Shown in pieces: positions 5,263-18,658 of a stretch of 21,920 nucleotides of DNA. Position 1 is the first letter of the stretch. Each line of letters starts with the position of its first letter. The notes under the pieces are model-generated. The model was not told the origin of the DNA and made no database searches. It worked only from the letters and a program-made list of their open reading frames with translations. The DNA lies in the IMG/VR virus record IMGVR_UViG_3300025785_000109, positions 1 through 21,920 of that record; one strand, 5' to 3'. A program made the position numbers and the translations under genes. The DNA comes from a virus.

Positions 5263-7869
5263 ATGGGTCTATTAGACCGTCTAGCAAAAGCAATCGTAGA
5301 TGCACAGATCGAGAAGGCTCCGAGTAACTTACCTGCTGGCGCAGTCGTTATGTCTGAACAACAGATGCGAGATGCTAACCAGCAAAACACATACGGCGCA
5401 CAGACTCCCTTACAACGCAATCCCCTTATGTCGGGCGTTCCTTTCGGCCCCGGTCAGCCGATCATGCCGGGCGCAATCAACCCATTACGCGATGACGGCA
5501 GAGCAGATCCTCGCCGCTATGAATACCAAGTCGCTCAGAACCTTAATATCGGGACAGAGCAGAAACTCGTTCAATTCAAAACACTTCGCGGAGCAGCAGA
5601 GCAAATTGACATTGTGCGCCGTTGCATCGAAGTATTAAAGGCTAAGATTTCAGGTTTAGATTGGGACATCGTTATCGCTCAAGATGCAAGCGAAAAGATT
5701 ATCTCCGAAATCGGTGGCGATCATGTTCGCGCCATGTCACAAGCTCGTTCTAAGTTCTCCGATGAGATTTACCGACTTAGGACATTTTGGGAAAATCCAG
5801 ATAAGGCTAATGGACTGACCTTCATTGACTGGATGATGATGTCGCTAGAGGAAATCCTTGTGCTAGATGCGTGGGCTATCTGGCCTCAGAAAACAGTTGG
5901 TGGGGATTTATACGGCTTTCAGATTTTAGACGGCTCGACTATTAAGCCAATGCTTGATGATCGCGGTATGCGCCCAATGGCTCCACAGGCTGCCTATCAG
6001 CAGATTCTCTATGGCTTCCCTCGCTCCGAGTTTATGGCTAACTCTGACGATGTTAAGGCAGATGGCGAGTTCTCATCAGATGATCTTTCTTACTTCATCC
6101 GAAACCGCCGCGCTAACTCCGTTTATGGCTCATCTCCAGTAGAGCGTTGCCTACCCCTAGCCGATCTTTACTTACGCCGCCAGCAATGGTTACGCGCTGA
6201 ATACACCGATGGCGTTACCCCCGAGATGATGCTTACCTCAGATGCTGACTTCGGTAATGACCCTCTCGTAATGAAGCAGTATGAAAACATTATTAACGAC
6301 AATTTGGCAGGGCAGACAGAGCAACGCAAACGCGCTCTTATCTTGCCTTCTGGTCTGAAGCCTGAGTTCTATGAGGGCTACGGCGAGAAGTTCAAAGCCG
6401 CGCTAGATGAATATTTAATTACCTCAATCACAGGTCACTTCGGCGTTCTGCCAACTGAGATCGGCTTCTCTCAAAAGGGTGGACTCGGCGCATCAGGTCA
6501 TCAAGCAGGAGAGGCAGAGGCCGCGCAGTCAATCGGTGTCGCGCCTTTGGCTCAATGGATTTCTAAGATGCTCACCAACATCTCTTATACCTATTTAAGT
6601 ATGCCACGCGAGCTAGAGTTTAAGTTCATGGTTTCTGAAATCCGTGACGATGAGGAAATGGCTAAGAAGTCAGACCTTGAATTACGCGGTGGCACAAAGA
6701 CAATCAATGAACGCCGTTCAGAGTTGGGCTTGCCTCTCCTAGATACTCCAGCCGCCGATCAGCCAATCCTTGTCGCTGGTAATGGCGTGTTCCTCTTTAG
6801 CCCAGAGGGAATCGTGAACGCTGCCGCGCCTATTGCTGGTGTTGAGAATGTTCAAGATGAAGTCGATCCAATGGCTCCTACAACTGCACAGACCGAAACA
6901 GAGCAGCCAAAACCAACTGAGCCAAAACCTGCTGAAGAAAAAGCCCTCAACAAATACAATGACAATCACGATGAGACAGGGCGTTTCTCTAGCGGAGGCG
7001 GCGGTAAAACTGAGTCAACCATTAAAGACAAAATCATTCCGCAGCTGAACCAAATCCAAGATCGCGTATCTTCTTTCGGTAATACCGAGGCAGCCAATCA
7101 TCTATCAGACGCTCGGCAAGCCCTAGAAAATCGAATCTCGGAAAACTCTCGCGGCAAGGCAGACCTCAATGACGCAGCAAGAAGTATGCTCAATGCTGGT
7201 AAGGCAAATGAAGGCGGAGTAGGCACTCAGGAAATCTATGCACTTGGACAACAGATCGCGGCTCTAAAAAGCGCGTCAGTTGATAAAGCCGGAGTACCTT
7301 CCGAGGCTGAAGCCGAAATTGCTATGAGCCGACTCAATGTTCTGCCTAATCCAGCCGGCAATGCTGTCTCAACTGAGGATAACCCTAGTGACTTCGTAGA
7401 GTCGCCCTGGGAAGTCACAGACCAAATCGCGGTAGACCCTGATGTCTGGCAAAAGGCAGAGTTGAAACTTGTGCCAGTAAAAGACCTTTACGCAACCGAC
7501 ACTGTCCTTGACAGATCAAAGGTTGAAGATCGCATCAAGACAATGGGGCAATCACTAAAGCCGTACCGCAACTTCCCTCTCGTGTATGACGATGGCGAGA
7601 AGCAGGTCATTATCGATGGACACCACCGCCTCCTAGCGATGTGGCTTCTAGGCATGGATCAAGTTCCGGTCTGGGTCGGCACTCCCGACACCGCTAAGGA
7701 AGCCAGCGTTGAAGTGAAGGCGTTTCTCAAGTGGGCTAGTAAAGGAAAACGCGCTCGCCAGTTTGAGTTCAAAGCCCTAGACCCAATCGTGGGGGATGCT
7801 CTAAATCGCTGCTACTTTGACGGCGATACCGACACGATGAAATCTCTGGCTAAGGCTTATCTGACATGA
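5263..7869 (+). CDS. Portal protein with C-terminal ParB-like domain
   Basis: An 868-residue protein, much longer than the usual 400-550 for HK97-type portals. Residues about 85-510 are the portal body that forms the dodecameric DNA entry ring, with conserved-style NRRANSVYGSSPVE (281-294) and GVLPTEIGFS (394-403) segments. Then come a Pro/Glu linker (about 535-562), a NDNHDETGRFSSGGGG motif (567-580) often found before added domains in phage head proteins, and a helical stretch (585-665). Residues about 737-800 look like a ParB/sulfiredoxin-fold domain: VPVKDL at 737-742 and IDGHHRLLAM at 784-793 followed by LGMDQVPVWVG. The usual GERR-type box is replaced by GHHR. Start is ATG 5263 with GGGGGA before it. 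It overlaps the MuF gene (ATGA). Portal call is firm. The added domain's activity is unknown. Confidence 0.88.
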   Translation: MGLLDRLAKAIVDAQIEKAPSNLPAGAVVMSEQQMRDANQQNTYGAQTPLQRNPLMSGVPFGPGQPIMPGAINPLRDDGRADPRRYEYQVAQNLNIGTEQKLVQFKTLRGAAEQIDIVRRCIEVLKAKISGLDWDIVIAQDASEKIISEIGGDHVRAMSQARSKFSDEIYRLRTFWENPDKANGLTFIDWMMMSLEEILVLDAWAIWPQKTVGGDLYGFQILDGSTIKPMLDDRGMRPMAPQAAYQQILYGFPRSEFMANSDDVKADGEFSSDDLSYFIRNRRANSVYGSSPVERCLPLADLYLRRQQWLRAEYTDGVTPEMMLTSDADFGNDPLVMKQYENIINDNLAGQTEQRKRALILPSGLKPEFYEGYGEKFKAALDEYLITSITGHFGVLPTEIGFSQKGGLGASGHQAGEAEAAQSIGVAPLAQWISKMLTNISYTYLSMPRELEFKFMVSEIRDDEEMAKKSDLELRGGTKTINERRSELGLPLLDTPAADQPILVAGNGVFLFSPEGIVNAAAPIAGVENVQDEVDPMAPTTAQTETEQPKPTEPKPAEEKALNKYNDNHDETGRFSSGGGGKTESTIKDKIIPQLNQIQDRVSSFGNTEAANHLSDARQALENRISENSRGKADLNDAARSMLNAGKANEGGVGTQEIYALGQQIAALKSASVDKAGVPSEAEAEIAMSRLNVLPNPAGNAVSTEDNPSDFVESPWEVTDQIAVDPDVWQKAELKLVPVKDLYATDTVLDRSKVEDRIKTMGQSLKPYRNFPLVYDDGEKQVIIDGHHRLLAMWLLGMDQVPVWVGTPDTAKEASVEVKAFLKWASKGKRARQFEFKALDPIVGDALNRCYFDGDTDTMKSLAKAYLT

Positions 7870-14072: not shown

Positions 14073-15053
14073 GTGGCACTACAAAATACACATCGTTCGT
14101 ATATAGGAATCGCCAAAGAAACAACTAAGGGAACTGCGGTCACAACCCCAACCGCGTATATTCCCGTTCTTGCCAACTCGGTCAAGCCTCAAGATGTTTT
14201 CACACCTCTCTACGATGAGGGCTTGCGTGGATCGCTTGTCAAGAATTACAACTACCTACAAGGCCGCGTTCACTCAACCTTTGACTTTGGTGGAGCAGTA
14301 TTCGCCGACACCGTGATCTACCCTCTTGCTGGTGTACTTGGTGAAGATGTCGTTTCAGGCTCAGCACCTTATGTCCACACCCTCGCACTCAAAAACTCAG
14401 CAACATCAGGCGCAGATGCTCAACCTTCTGCTTACACAATCGTTGATTTCTATGGCGCAAATGTTCGCTCATGGACAGGCCATCAGTTCTCAGATTTCTC
14501 TCTCAAGTGGAACGCAGACGGACTCCTTGAGTACGATGCAAAATCAACAGGATGGCAGTCCGCTACCGCATCGACCCCAACTCCATCTTTCTCAACTGTC
14601 CTTCCAAGCGTTGTCTGGACTGGAACTGTCAGCGTTGCTGGTACTACGATCTCAACCAACACAGATGGAAACATTGATCTCAAGCGACCAGTCACTCCTG
14701 TCTACGGAATCTCAAATGTGCAGACTCCTTATCAGGTATTCCTCGGTGCACTTGAGGTAACGGGTAAGGCAACTTTCCTCATGGAAAGTGACACCCAACT
14801 GACTAACTACTTGACTAACACCCAACCAGCACTCGTCTTTAACTGGACAACTGGAACAGGTGCTACTCAAACATCAATCCAAGCCACGATGACAAAGGGC
14901 GCGTACACACTCGCCGTTATCGAACGCTCTAAGGATTTTGTCGAAGTCTTGGTCGATTTCAACGCTCAAGGCAACCTGACCGATGCTGGAACTGTCGGAT
15001 ACTCACCTATTAAGTGGGTTATCAAGAACGCAGTAACCACCTCAGTCGCTTAA
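14073..15053 (+). CDS. Major tail tube protein
   Basis: A 326-residue protein expected to form the rings of the tail tube. Opening ALQNTHRSYIGIAKETTKGT is the usual start of such proteins, and the body is rich in beta strand and Thr/Val/Ser. DTVIYPLAGVLGED and the C-terminal DFVEVLVDFNAQG fit the tube fold. The start is GTG 14073 after AAGGAG at 14057-14062. It is immediately followed by a strong hairpin, in keeping with a highly expressed gene, and then by the chaperone genes, the classic order tube-chaperones-tape measure. Confidence 0.8.
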   Translation: MALQNTHRSYIGIAKETTKGTAVTTPTAYIPVLANSVKPQDVFTPLYDEGLRGSLVKNYNYLQGRVHSTFDFGGAVFADTVIYPLAGVLGEDVVSGSAPYVHTLALKNSATSGADAQPSAYTIVDFYGANVRSWTGHQFSDFSLKWNADGLLEYDAKSTGWQSATASTPTPSFSTVLPSVVWTGTVSVAGTTISTNTDGNIDLKRPVTPVYGISNVQTPYQVFLGALEVTGKATFLMESDTQLTNYLTNTQPALVFNWTTGTGATQTSIQATMTKGAYTLAVIERSKDFVEVLVDFNAQGNLTDAGTVGYSPIKWVIKNAVTTSVA

Positions 15054-15107: not shown

Positions 15108-15152
15108 CTATATTTGCTAAGATAATCAGAAGGCAAACTACTAGGAGGCACC

Positions 15153-15500
15153 ATGTCAAAACTAACACTTCCATCAGGCGCAACAGTCACACTTAAAGAC
15201 CCAAATACCTTGAAGGTTAAAGATCGCAACCGCATTATGAAGGCTGGCGATGGTGGGTCAGCAGCAGAGCGCGGAATTGCTATCAGTAACGCACTTCTCG
15301 CCGCAATCATTGAGGACTGGTCTTACGACCTTCTCGTTCCTTCAGTTAAAGAGGAATCCATCGAGGAACTGCCAATCCCTGACTATTCTCTGCTCGTCAA
15401 AGAAACCGAGAGCTACATCAAGGCAATCTTCCCTGAACTCGCAGACACCGACCTTAATCGTTTGAATCCTGATAGCCCTTTAGAAAACTCGAACGGCTAA
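15153..15500 (+). CDS. Tail assembly chaperone, short form (gpG-like)
   Basis: A 115-residue protein from ATG 15153, with a strong AGGAGG site at 15143-15148. It opens with a beta strand SKLTLPSGATVTLKDPN, then helices, matching the first of the two tail assembly chaperones that coat the tape measure during tail building. It ends at TAA 15498-15500. A fraction of ribosomes should shift -1 at 15476-15482 and make a longer form. Lies directly before the gp10-like and tape measure genes, as usual. Confidence 0.8.
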   Translation: MSKLTLPSGATVTLKDPNTLKVKDRNRIMKAGDGGSAAERGIAISNALLAAIIEDWSYDLLVPSVKEESIEELPIPDYSLLVKETESYIKAIFPELADTDLNRLNPDSPLENSNG

Positions 15501-15697
15501 AAGGATTACTGCAAGGGTTTCAGAGAAATCCAGACTTTGATTACCCCGATGAGGAATGGTTCTACTTTAGGTTCGCAGATAAGTTTGGTTGGACTCCTGA
15601 CCAAGTAGATGATCTACCAGCAATACGCGCTGAGTGGTTGATAGCAATAGCCGATACCATTGAGCAAGTGAAGATCGAAAAGATGGAGAACCGGTGA
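15153..15697 (+). CDS. Tail assembly chaperone, frameshifted long form (gpGT-like)
   Basis: The -1 frame is open from 15476 to the TGA at 15695-15697 and reads as real protein (RKLERLKGLLQGF, FDYPDEEWFYFRFADKFGW, then EWLIAIADTIEQVKIEKM), yet has no start of its own with a ribosome site. Slipping at CCCTTTA (15476-15482) joins 110 residues of the short form to 71 of this frame, giving about 181 residues. This is the classic G/GT arrangement, where the long form binds tail tube and tape measure. The -1 frame overlaps the next start (GTGA 15694-15697). Confidence 0.8.
15476..15482 (+). other. -1 ribosomal frameshift slippery site CCCTTTA
   Basis: The heptamer fits the X XXY YYZ rule in the right phase: the zero-frame codons are CCT TTA, which re-pair as CCC TTT after a one-base backward slip. 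It lies 18 bases before the zero-frame stop, directly where the -1 frame becomes open (the -1 frame has a TAG at 15473-15475). No obvious downstream pseudoknot is seen by eye. Confidence 0.8.
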
Positions 15698-16146
15698 GCG
15701 ATAACCTGCCCGAAGTCTTAGCGGCTTTGAAGGCATGGCAAAATCGCATGGATAAGGCGGCAGAGTTAGCTACGAGAGAAATCTCTATTGCTCTCTGGAC
15801 AGATGCCCGTAAAATCGCTAGCGAAACTTCAAACCCACCGATTCAGAAGAACAATAGGTTACGCCACAACCCTCACATCGGCCCACGATCAGGAGAAGGC
15901 CCGAACATCGCAACGGGTAATCTCTTTCGCAACATCATCGCTCAACCAGTTAGGTATCAAGGATTTGGCACTTATGTCGCAAGCGTTGAATCTGGTGCCG
16001 AGTACGCCAGAGCAGTAGAACAAGGCTCATCTAATTGGAATGGGGTAAAATACCCATATATGACTCCTGCGCGTGAGAATCTCATCGCAACGGGTAAAGC
16101 GCAGATAATCGCAACGGGATTTCTAAGAGCAGCGATGGGGGTTTAG
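15694..16146 (+). CDS. HK97 gp10-like protein (neck/tail completion type)
   Basis: A 150-residue protein from GTG 15694, overlapping the chaperone long form by four bases. Residues 15-55 form an amphipathic helix, and ATGNLFRNI then VASVESGAEYARAVEQGSSNW and YPYMTPAREN match the HK97 gp10-like family, which usually works at the head-tail joint or in tail completion. Here the gene is displaced to a place between chaperones and tape measure. Family call is by motif. Exact role in this phage is uncertain. Confidence 0.7.
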   Translation: MSDNLPEVLAALKAWQNRMDKAAELATREISIALWTDARKIASETSNPPIQKNNRLRHNPHIGPRSGEGPNIATGNLFRNIIAQPVRYQGFGTYVASVESGAEYARAVEQGSSNWNGVKYPYMTPARENLIATGKAQIIATGFLRAAMGV

Positions 16147-16147
16147 A

Positions 16148-18658
16148 GTGGCAGGCGATATCCCTCCATTAAATATTGACATCCAAGTCGCTCTTGGAAA
16201 CCTTACTAGCGCAGTAGATAAAGCCACATCCGAACTTGGAAAAGTAGGCGATGCTGCTAAAAATCAAGAGTCTAAATTCTCGTCATTAAAGACTGTCATG
16301 GGTGGAGTCTTTGGTGGAAACTTGATGATGCAGGGCGCACAAATGCTAGAAGGTGGATTGCGCGATGCTATTAAGGCAATCCAAGATACTCAGGTAGCCA
16401 CCGAACAACTTTCAACGGCACTTAATAACTCAAAACAAAACACCGCCGCCAATAGAACAGAAATCCAAGCGACAACGGAAAAAATGTCGGCTTTGGGTTT
16501 TTCTACTTCTGCCACAGAGGGCGCATATAAGACTTTAATTTCTGCAACAGGCTCGACAACTGAAGCCACCAAGTTGATGGCGATGGCAGCTGATCTTGCT
16601 CGCTACAAACATGAAGATTTAGCTACTGCCGCTGGCACTCTTGAAAAAGCCACAATGGGTAACGCTCGCGCTTTCAAAGAATTTGGTATTACTTTAGACA
16701 CAACTTTGCCCAAGAATCAGGCTATCACTAAGGCAATGGATGAGTTAAACCAAAAGATCGGCGGGCAAGCAGTTGGATACACTCACACATTCGCCGGCGA
16801 GATTGAAGTCTTAAAAGCCAAGTTTGACGATGTGGCAGTTAAGGTCGGCGCAGTTGTCATGCCGATCCTGACAAAACTGGTGGAGTTTATTACGGGCGTT
16901 CTCATTCCAGCAATCGTTTTTCTATACAACATCGCCATCGGCGACTGGATTAAACAACTTGTAAATCTCTGGAACACGCACGAAGGTCTAAGAAAAGTCG
17001 TCGTTGATGTTATTAAGGCAATCGTTGATGCTCTTGGGTACATCGTAGGGGCTATCGGTAAAGTTGTAGATGCTGCCTCTCACTTGCCTCTTATCGGCAG
17101 TCACTTCAAGGGTATCGGCGCAGGTATTGATGAAGCCGCAAAGAAAATCGGTGATTTTGGTAAGGGCTTAGATGCTCTAGCTAATAAGAAAATCGGTGGG
17201 GGAGCTAGCCTTGCTGACCAACTCGTTACTGCCGGAACTACTGGCGCGGGTGGGGATACCGGCGTTACAGGCAACCTCGGAGCCGCTGGAAATGTATCTA
17301 AAGCCCATGCTGCTGCTGCTAAAGCAACTGCCACCGCACTAGCCAAGCGCAACGCCGAAATCAAGAAATACAACGATGAGGCAGTCAAGCTAGAAGATCA
17401 GATGAACGCGGTTCTCACAGACCGTCAACAGAAGATGGATGCGGCAACTGCTACTCGTGACGATGCTTTAGCAAAAGCCAACGAAACTTACAACCAATCA
17501 GTCGCAGACATTAACCAAAAGTATGACGATGCTATGGCTACGGCTCAAGATAATTACAACACCGCAGTCGAGAACGCTACTGCCACTCATCAGGAAAATT
17601 TGCTTGATATTCAGCAACAGTACGCAGATAAAGCCGCGCAGATTGAGCAAGCCGCCGCCGATAAGCGACAGAGTATTATTCAGCAATCTATTGATGCAAT
17701 GACTAGCGCGTTTGCCAGCGCAACCAAGATTGACATCGGCAAACTATTCACGGCTGGTGGAGGAACTGCCGATGGTCTGGTATCTCAGTTGCAAGATCAA
17801 ATGGCTCAGATTACGCAGTTGCAACAAGATGCTGGACTTCTTGCTGCGCAGGGCTACAATCAATCTTTCATTAACGAGGTTATTTCACAAGGGCCAGCAC
17901 AGGGAGATGCGCTTGCTCAGTCAGTCCTCAACGCAACTCCTGACACTCAAAACTCTATTAAATCTCTCTACGCTCAAATCCAAGACACATCTCAGAACGG
18001 GCTCAATACTCTTGCCGCGCAGATGAACGATGGAACGAGTTTTGCTACCCAAGCCCTCGCGCAGCAATACGCGCAAGTCGGCGTTGATCTACAAACACAA
18101 CTTGCCGCCAACTCATCAGCCATGCAGACGGCAATGGATAAAGAAAACGACACCTTTAATAAATCACTTACCACAGCCCAAGACACCTTAGATAAGGCTA
18201 CAAAAGCCGCCACAGATGCCCGTGACCTTGCTTTACAAAATGCGCAAGATACCCTTCAGAACTCCATTACGGCGGCTCAGGATGCCTTTAGCAAGTCTGT
18301 AACTGCCATCTCAGACTCGACCATGAAACAACTTGATGCGCTTCAAACCAAACTTGAATCGGTAGCCGCTTCTCTTGGCTCCCTCGGTGCCTCGACAGCC
18401 AGTATCTCTAGCTATGGCGCAAGCGTTGGAATGTCTATGGGTGGAACGAATACAACTCTCGTCAATCCTTTAGGTGGCCCGAAGGATATGTCTAACTACA
18501 CAGACAACAGCGTGAACACAACTATCTACGCCTCGACAACCGCAACAGCAGCAGATATGGCAAACGCCGTGACCTCGGCGGCTAAGTTCGGACAACCAAT
18601 CGCCACTAGCCCGCAAATCGTTGCCGGACTTTCTGGGACTTCTGCGAAGGGTAACTAA
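16148..18658 (+). CDS. Tape measure protein
   Basis: An 836-residue protein, the longest tail gene, that sets tail length. At roughly 1.5 A per residue (known family ratio) this implies a tail near 125 nm. The N-terminal part (1-235) is helical with a Gly-rich hydrophobic patch near 50-65 (MGGVFGGNLMMQGAQ) and the NARAFKEFGI segment. Residues 238-267 form a hydrophobic membrane-like segment (PILTKLVEFITGVLIPAIVF), likely used in membrane passage of DNA. Two long coiled-coil stretches with Ala/Asp/Gln repeats follow (about 400-517 and 662-746), the second with recurring AQDTL/AQDAF units. No lysozyme or peptidase domain is visible. Start GTG 16148 sits one base after the upstream stop. It shares one base with the next gene (TAATG). 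Confidence 0.88.
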   Translation: MAGDIPPLNIDIQVALGNLTSAVDKATSELGKVGDAAKNQESKFSSLKTVMGGVFGGNLMMQGAQMLEGGLRDAIKAIQDTQVATEQLSTALNNSKQNTAANRTEIQATTEKMSALGFSTSATEGAYKTLISATGSTTEATKLMAMAADLARYKHEDLATAAGTLEKATMGNARAFKEFGITLDTTLPKNQAITKAMDELNQKIGGQAVGYTHTFAGEIEVLKAKFDDVAVKVGAVVMPILTKLVEFITGVLIPAIVFLYNIAIGDWIKQLVNLWNTHEGLRKVVVDVIKAIVDALGYIVGAIGKVVDAASHLPLIGSHFKGIGAGIDEAAKKIGDFGKGLDALANKKIGGGASLADQLVTAGTTGAGGDTGVTGNLGAAGNVSKAHAAAAKATATALAKRNAEIKKYNDEAVKLEDQMNAVLTDRQQKMDAATATRDDALAKANETYNQSVADINQKYDDAMATAQDNYNTAVENATATHQENLLDIQQQYADKAAQIEQAAADKRQSIIQQSIDAMTSAFASATKIDIGKLFTAGGGTADGLVSQLQDQMAQITQLQQDAGLLAAQGYNQSFINEVISQGPAQGDALAQSVLNATPDTQNSIKSLYAQIQDTSQNGLNTLAAQMNDGTSFATQALAQQYAQVGVDLQTQLAANSSAMQTAMDKENDTFNKSLTTAQDTLDKATKAATDARDLALQNAQDTLQNSITAAQDAFSKSVTAISDSTMKQLDALQTKLESVAASLGSLGASTASISSYGASVGMSMGGTNTTLVNPLGGPKDMSNYTDNSVNTTIYASTTATAADMANAVTSAAKFGQPIATSPQIVAGLSGTSAKGN

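Follow-up and report, generated by a model that had tools for sequence, protein, structure and literature searches.

The window (the whole stretch of DNA analysed, 21,920 bases, which is an entire virus record) comes from a bacterial virus known only from environmental DNA, which, to judge from its genes, appears to produce a tail-building helper protein in two versions. The locus very probably encodes the tail assembly chaperones of a long-tailed phage, where a -1 slip on the heptamer C_CCU_UUA gives a short and a long form. That tail chaperones use programmed -1 frameshifting is established knowledge (PMC5009743, PMC10885494, PMC3711429), and we assign the locus to the phage lambda G/GT type because an in-phase slip site, a coding -1 frame, the late position of any start codon in that frame, a chaperone fold match and a place between the tail tube and tape measure genes all coincide. 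The relatives examined carry either of two slip sites nine letters apart, never both.

The layout of the junction is directly observed. The frame-0 gene (15153-15500, plus strand, as are all features of the junction) is an open reading frame with a fold match to the HK97 tail assembly chaperone; it is preceded by an AGGAGG ribosome binding site (15143-15148), encodes a gpG-like short chaperone of 115 amino acids and ends at TAA (15498-15500). The slippery heptamer C CCT TTA (15476-15482) lies near the end of these 115 codons, and frame 0 reads it as AGC CCT TTA, that is C_CCU_UUA in the -1 phase, TTA being codon 110; the frame-0 codons CCT and TTA re-pair as CCC and TTT. A TAG (15473-15475) directly 5' of the heptamer closes the -1 frame upstream, and from the heptamer this frame is open to a TGA (15695-15697), giving 73 codons counted from CCC, 71 of which are decoded after the slip (T-like extension, 15482-15697 including the TGA). 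A correct-phase heptamer of the tandem-slip form X_XXY_YYZ is thus present inside the overlap of the two frames. The preliminary description had placed CCCTTTA in the right phase, exactly where the -1 frame opens, and rechecking the sequence confirms this together with its coordinates, its count of 71 codons and its junction residue number, 110. If 23 genes are assumed for the window, in-phase X_XXY_YYZ heptamers occur at 15 of 6,832 codon positions, from which about 0.015 would be expected by chance across the seven in-phase positions of the overlap; CCCTTTA at 15476 is the only one of the 15 with a -1 frame that outruns its own gene. Of 23 CCCTTTA representatives, 21 retain the -1-frame TAG next to the heptamer, although GAC would suit frame 0 as well as GAT.

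Conservation of the junction was observed directly in relatives, a comparison of slippery sites that the preliminary description had proposed as a check. A scan of IMG/VR with the frame-0 protein finds 60 loci that encode relatives, some of them near-copies of the window. In every one of the 60 an in-phase heptamer occupies the junction (CCCTTTA in 54, CCCAAAA in 6), a degree of conservation that far exceeds chance. The heptamer was seen directly in 58 of these; in the other two (L011 and L031), where frame 0 stopped early, it was seen at the junction itself. Both of these loci have a premature stop about 70 residues into frame 0 with junction and extension present, and are either real variants or assembly artefacts. 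Further loci came from profile scans (the best 80 of 82, 438, 446 and 485 confirmed loci), bringing the collection to 372 sequences including the window; 370 could be analysed, two from one contig (L036 and L101) being left out as both stop short of the core of the extension. They reduce to 134 distinct contexts, none longer than 180 bases, and these are a sample because the profile scans took only the best 80 loci each time. A conserved in-phase slippery site is found in 133 of the 134, always as one of two heptamers: 48 contexts have CCCTTTA and 85 have CCCAAAA; the two never occur together, and a single context lacks both. This exception (L260, 87-305) reads TCCTTTA near a contig end, a natural variant of the slip site or a sequence error; from its letters it should slip poorly. 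Two other relatives (L017 and L018) have roughly 11 extra residues in the frame-0 protein, owing to an apparent tandem duplication close to its end.

The codons of the heptamers are fixed as well. AGC, CCT and TTA are invariant in 23 of 23 CCCTTTA representatives, and CCA and AAA in 45 of 45 CCCAAAA representatives, whereas comparison columns with invariant residues (six per class) use two to six codons each. The frame-0 protein has no need of such fixed codon choices; common ancestry adds to the uniformity, yet the neighbouring columns have the same ancestry. That one junction is served by two different sites is what selection for slippage predicts, and not what selection for one protein motif predicts.

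The -1 frame is observed to be under coding constraint, in line with the preliminary description, which had read it as coding. The comparison took 68 representatives (95% clusters, window included) of 126 distinct core sequences. Over a 150-base stretch of the extension the -1 frame is open in all 68, the other two frames in one and none. Mean pN/pS is 0.20 in the -1 frame (776 pairs), and 1.60 (774 pairs) and 1.88 (763 pairs) in the remaining two. The other ORFs listed for the gap from the frame-0 stop to the next gene come to one, of 60 codons on the opposite strand (15567-15749), and the start-codon-based ORF list omits the conserved 71-codon extension, as had been foreseen for a simple gene caller.

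How this second frame is reached could in principle be explained without slippage, if it were an independent gene with a start of its own, used by internal initiation or reinitiation. An ATG, GTG or TTG does precede the conserved tryptophan in 29 of 133 distinct contexts (ATG in six), but the remaining 104 have none in the open -1 frame ahead of that residue, and a start behind one of four SD-like tetramers occurs in just three of the 133, each time a TTG. The earliest ATG, GTG or TTG in the -1 frame of the window is a TTG 54 codons past CCC, beyond the WTPDQVD motif, which bears out the earlier statement that the frame has no start with a ribosome site. The pair thus consists of two overlapping frames, the second in -1 and lacking a usable early start; its expression most likely depends on the upstream gene. 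A separate start also leaves the fixed heptamer codons unexplained, and we regard it as very improbable. Transcriptional slippage, in which RNA polymerase and not the ribosome changes frame, is another route to a second frame (PMC5009743 and general knowledge); CCCTTTA and CCCAAAA, however, lack the usual long run of more than seven A or eight T (PMC3711429), and what is conserved is an X_XXY_YYZ heptamer in ribosomal phase, which makes a polymerase origin highly improbable. An indel can also create a single-base offset between two frames, so that a sequencing or assembly error, or decay, might have split one continuous gene. The relatives already refute this, since 133 of the 134 distinct contexts have the identical frame relation at the heptamer and selection maintains the extension as coding sequence; the chance that the gene was merely split is negligible. 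Ribosomal slippage at the heptamer remains the preferred reading.

The frame-0 protein of the window has no family match in Pfam, PHROGs or NCBIfam, and its extension matches two PHROGs of unknown function (E 0.13 and 0.16). Weak matches appear among the relatives, to PF10109 (19 of 58, best E 0.021), to the tail protein family phrog_166 (16 of 58, best E 0.00038) and, for the extension, to the tail assembly chaperone family phrog_9001 (10 of 53, best E 0.0044). tblastn against an annotated phage collection finds nothing with the frame-0 protein or the extension (E limits 0.1) or with the extension of a distant relative (E limit 1), although the terminase, Dit-like and tail tube proteins of the window do have distant matches there. 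Searched by sequence against solved structures, frame 0 gives four unconvincing matches (the best, SKP1-like, at E 0.12) and the extension none. A scan of an 84,980-species genome collection returned 39 stretches that fit a pattern, none of which was confirmed, and no host or prophage was found.

The AlphaFold models, for which the structure alignments took 58 and 53 of the 68 representatives, have mean pLDDT values of 80 (frame 0) and 91 (extension, whose five models span 65 to 91). Foldseek places the HK97 tail assembly chaperone [PDB 2OB9, E 0.15 (not significant alone), probability 0.91] at the top of 350,542 solved chains for the frame-0 model, and a second structure comparison agrees (Z 4.8, 82 aligned residues, 3.6 Å, 19-21% identity over the aligned part; the runner-up has Z 2.1). 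The model thus leans towards a chaperone fold for the frame-0 protein. For the extension, comparison with a viral library and 24 PDB chains gives weak matches, several of them annotated as tail assembly chaperones, none of which stands out. The chaperone reading is likely because the predicted fold and the relatives' profile matches, each weak alone, agree with the gene order and the frame layout.

The window has a siphovirus-type structural module with terminase, portal, tail tube, tape measure and distal tail protein. The order around the junction is tail tube, G (the frame-0 gene), T (the extension), neck-like gene, tape measure, which puts the pair between the major tail protein and the tape measure with the neck-like gene intervening. 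The major tail tube protein gene lies at 14073-15053 (PF18906, E 4.2e-24), the HK97 gp10-like or neck-like gene at 15694-16146, overlapping the end of the -1 frame (phrog_5, E 1.5e-7), and the tape measure protein gene, of 836 amino acids, at 16148-18658 (phrog_1272, E 1.4e-4), all on the plus strand. As with the neck-like gene here, the extension is followed by an alignable protein in 65 of 68 representatives. Elsewhere in the window, the portal protein (5263-7869, 868 amino acids) has ParB-like matches near its C-terminus (residues ~726-814; phrog_620 at 772-807, E 7.3e-5), which suggests a fused domain, and the large terminase (641-2071) has a terminal tail with paired CxxC, zinc ribbon-like (PF12773, E 0.012, under its cut-off).

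Taken with the position, phase, missing start, coding signal, conservation and fold, the two-form tail chaperone of the preliminary description is supported, and we infer that slippage occurs; how often it happens and what either form does are likewise deduced. Most ribosomes would translate 15153-15500 into the short form of 115 amino acids. A fraction would slip back one base on C_CCU_UUA, with tRNA-Pro and tRNA-Leu re-pairing to CCC and UUU, bypass the TAA at 15498 and end 71 codons on at the TGA at 15695, giving a long form of 181 residues. By analogy with lambda, the part shared by both forms may coat the tape measure protein, and the extension may recruit tail tube subunits.

The G/GT heptamer of phage lambda is GGGAAAG, as opposed to CCCTTTA or CCCAAAA here, and the lambda extension is longer than that of the window. 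The slip site lies near the end of the first frame in both. The present system also differs from lambda in that neither protein has a tblastn match in the phage collection and in that the neck-like gene separates the extension from the tape measure. As in lambda, a short frame-0 protein would be accompanied by a rarer -1 extended form among the tail genes (PMC5009743). Pseudomonas phage Adele and the Vandenendeviridae likewise have a predicted -1 frameshift, joining TAC-N and TAC-NC just before the tape measure; there one motif, GTTTTT, is described as common to divergent genera (PMC12846349), whereas here two motifs at two positions occur in one family.

Within the window's clade (clade 1) the two heptamers differ in their upstream signals: a strong SD-like GTGGAGA ends 11 nt upstream of the heptamer in seven of eight CCCAAAA rows (-6.4 kcal/mol with the anti-SD; the eighth row has -2.9 kcal/mol). 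None of the 21 CCCTTTA rows of the same clade reaches -5 kcal/mol, 12 have no pairing at all, and the window has none. Such an element is no general requirement of an X_XXY_YYZ site. Outside the clade the contrast is weaker, as CCCAAAA rows average -4.95 and the CCCTTTA loci L185 and L198 have -4.7 and -3.1 kcal/mol. The -1 frameshift of E. coli dnaX combines an SD-like element, AAA_AAA_G and a hairpin (PMC3711429); the GTGGAGA of the CCCAAAA rows resembles the first of these, unlike the window, which has neither an SD-like element nor a detectable downstream hairpin.

Downstream of the heptamer (12-112 nt), mean z against shuffles is -2.49 for clade-2 CCCAAAA (37 representatives), -1.51 for clade-1 CCCAAAA (eight rows) and -0.52 for clade-1 CCCTTTA. 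For the CCCTTTA class as a whole, modelling of simple hairpins gives no convincing structure over the same interval (mean z -0.62, 23 rows), and the consensus fold of 18 rows has eight weak pairs. RNAalifold finds no common pair in 23 clade-2 CCCAAAA rows, and control windows farther downstream are likewise folded (z -1.43 and -1.02; clade-1 rows -1.75 and -1.54 at 60-160 nt); for these two reasons we claim no shared stimulator. The earlier remark that no clear downstream structure is visible therefore stands for simple hairpins, the structures modelled, in the window and in the CCCTTTA class. As to the heptamers themselves, mixed A-site codons such as UUA shift less in E. coli than UUU or UUC. 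Pyrimidine-pyrimidine motifs (CCC with UUU) otherwise do well, and V_VVA_AAR and H_HHU_UUY, but not CCCUUUA, are listed among the most efficient classes (PMC4066793). Points against a frameshifted chaperone at this locus are the mixed A-site codon UUA, the CCCTTTA class with no stimulator found, the two of 60 loci with a premature frame-0 stop, the TCCTTTA of L260, the lack of a curated family for the frame-0 protein and the Foldseek E-value.

CCCAAAA is located nine nucleotides upstream of the CCCTTTA position, and the fused linker is three residues longer (PKSxYRxLxRL in CCCAAAA relatives, PFRxLxRL in CCCTTTA). Related pairs of unlike type (n = 52, mean flank identity 0.75) and of the same type (n = 198, mean 0.785) were compared at a flank identity of at least 0.72. 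DNA identity over the 24 bases around the sites is 0.36 for unlike and 0.85 for same-type pairs, a dip partly by construction because the heptamers inside this bin define the types; only the drop in the 18 bases upstream, from 0.72 (same type) to 0.54 (unlike), escapes that effect.

One family that keeps a required frameshift may have swapped mutually exclusive CCCAAAA and CCCTTTA junctions more than once, a proposal that we consider evenly balanced. Trees of the 68 representatives have eight (G+T), nine (G) and seven (T) changes of heptamer type, at least five of them forced in each; the downstream-gene tree (65 of 68 rows) has five, at least three forced. The competing account, possible though doubtful, is that the two types are one old split and that the repeats on the trees reflect small-gene noise or exchange of neighbouring genes; it challenges the switching of sites, not the frameshift. 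Within the window's own clade a single split is not rejected by the AU test on G+T (p-AU 0.229) or on G+T plus the downstream gene (27 of 29 rows, p-AU 0.37). Across all rows, a single CCCTTTA clade is rejected on G+T (p-AU 0.02). L185 (CCCTTTA) groups with CCCAAAA relatives in three trees (G+T, G and the downstream gene) and is the best-supported extra origin of CCCTTTA. L198 (also CCCTTTA) does so in the first two of these, but the downstream-gene tree puts it on the window's side by clade counts, on a long branch, as one old split would have it. The linkers of L185 and L198 are unlike each other and unlike that of the window's clade, which argues against a single split; that of L198 has the upstream part found in many CCCAAAA rows (GGCAGACCC) followed by TACAAGCCCTTTAGA, and looks transitional.

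Searches of open-access papers yielded no report of a CCCTTTA or CCCUUUA slip site in a phage tail chaperone, nor of slip-site switching within one phage tail chaperone family. The same heptamer is shared by an unrelated RNA virus, giardiavirus, where CCCUUUA was once proposed as the -1 site between capsid and polymerase; a later paper (PMC8230311) disputes this and favours +1/-2. CCCTTTA in a review of SPbeta is an attachment-site string and not a frameshift site.

The frameshift itself is textbook phage biology, and the main gain is a correction of annotation, the conserved 71-codon extension. Beyond that, its value is evolutionary: the family has two heptamers at two positions, with the protein fusion kept, and a clade around the window in which they have different upstream signals. 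Relatives with one or the other would be natural pairs for testing how the ratio of short to long chaperone is controlled, one member having V_VVA_AAR, efficient in E. coli, the other a motif outside the efficient classes named for that organism (PMC4066793). If the repeated swapping is true, programmed-frameshift signals would be interchangeable, and nature would have supplied in the two junctions a matched pair with which to study how the short-to-long ratio is fixed.
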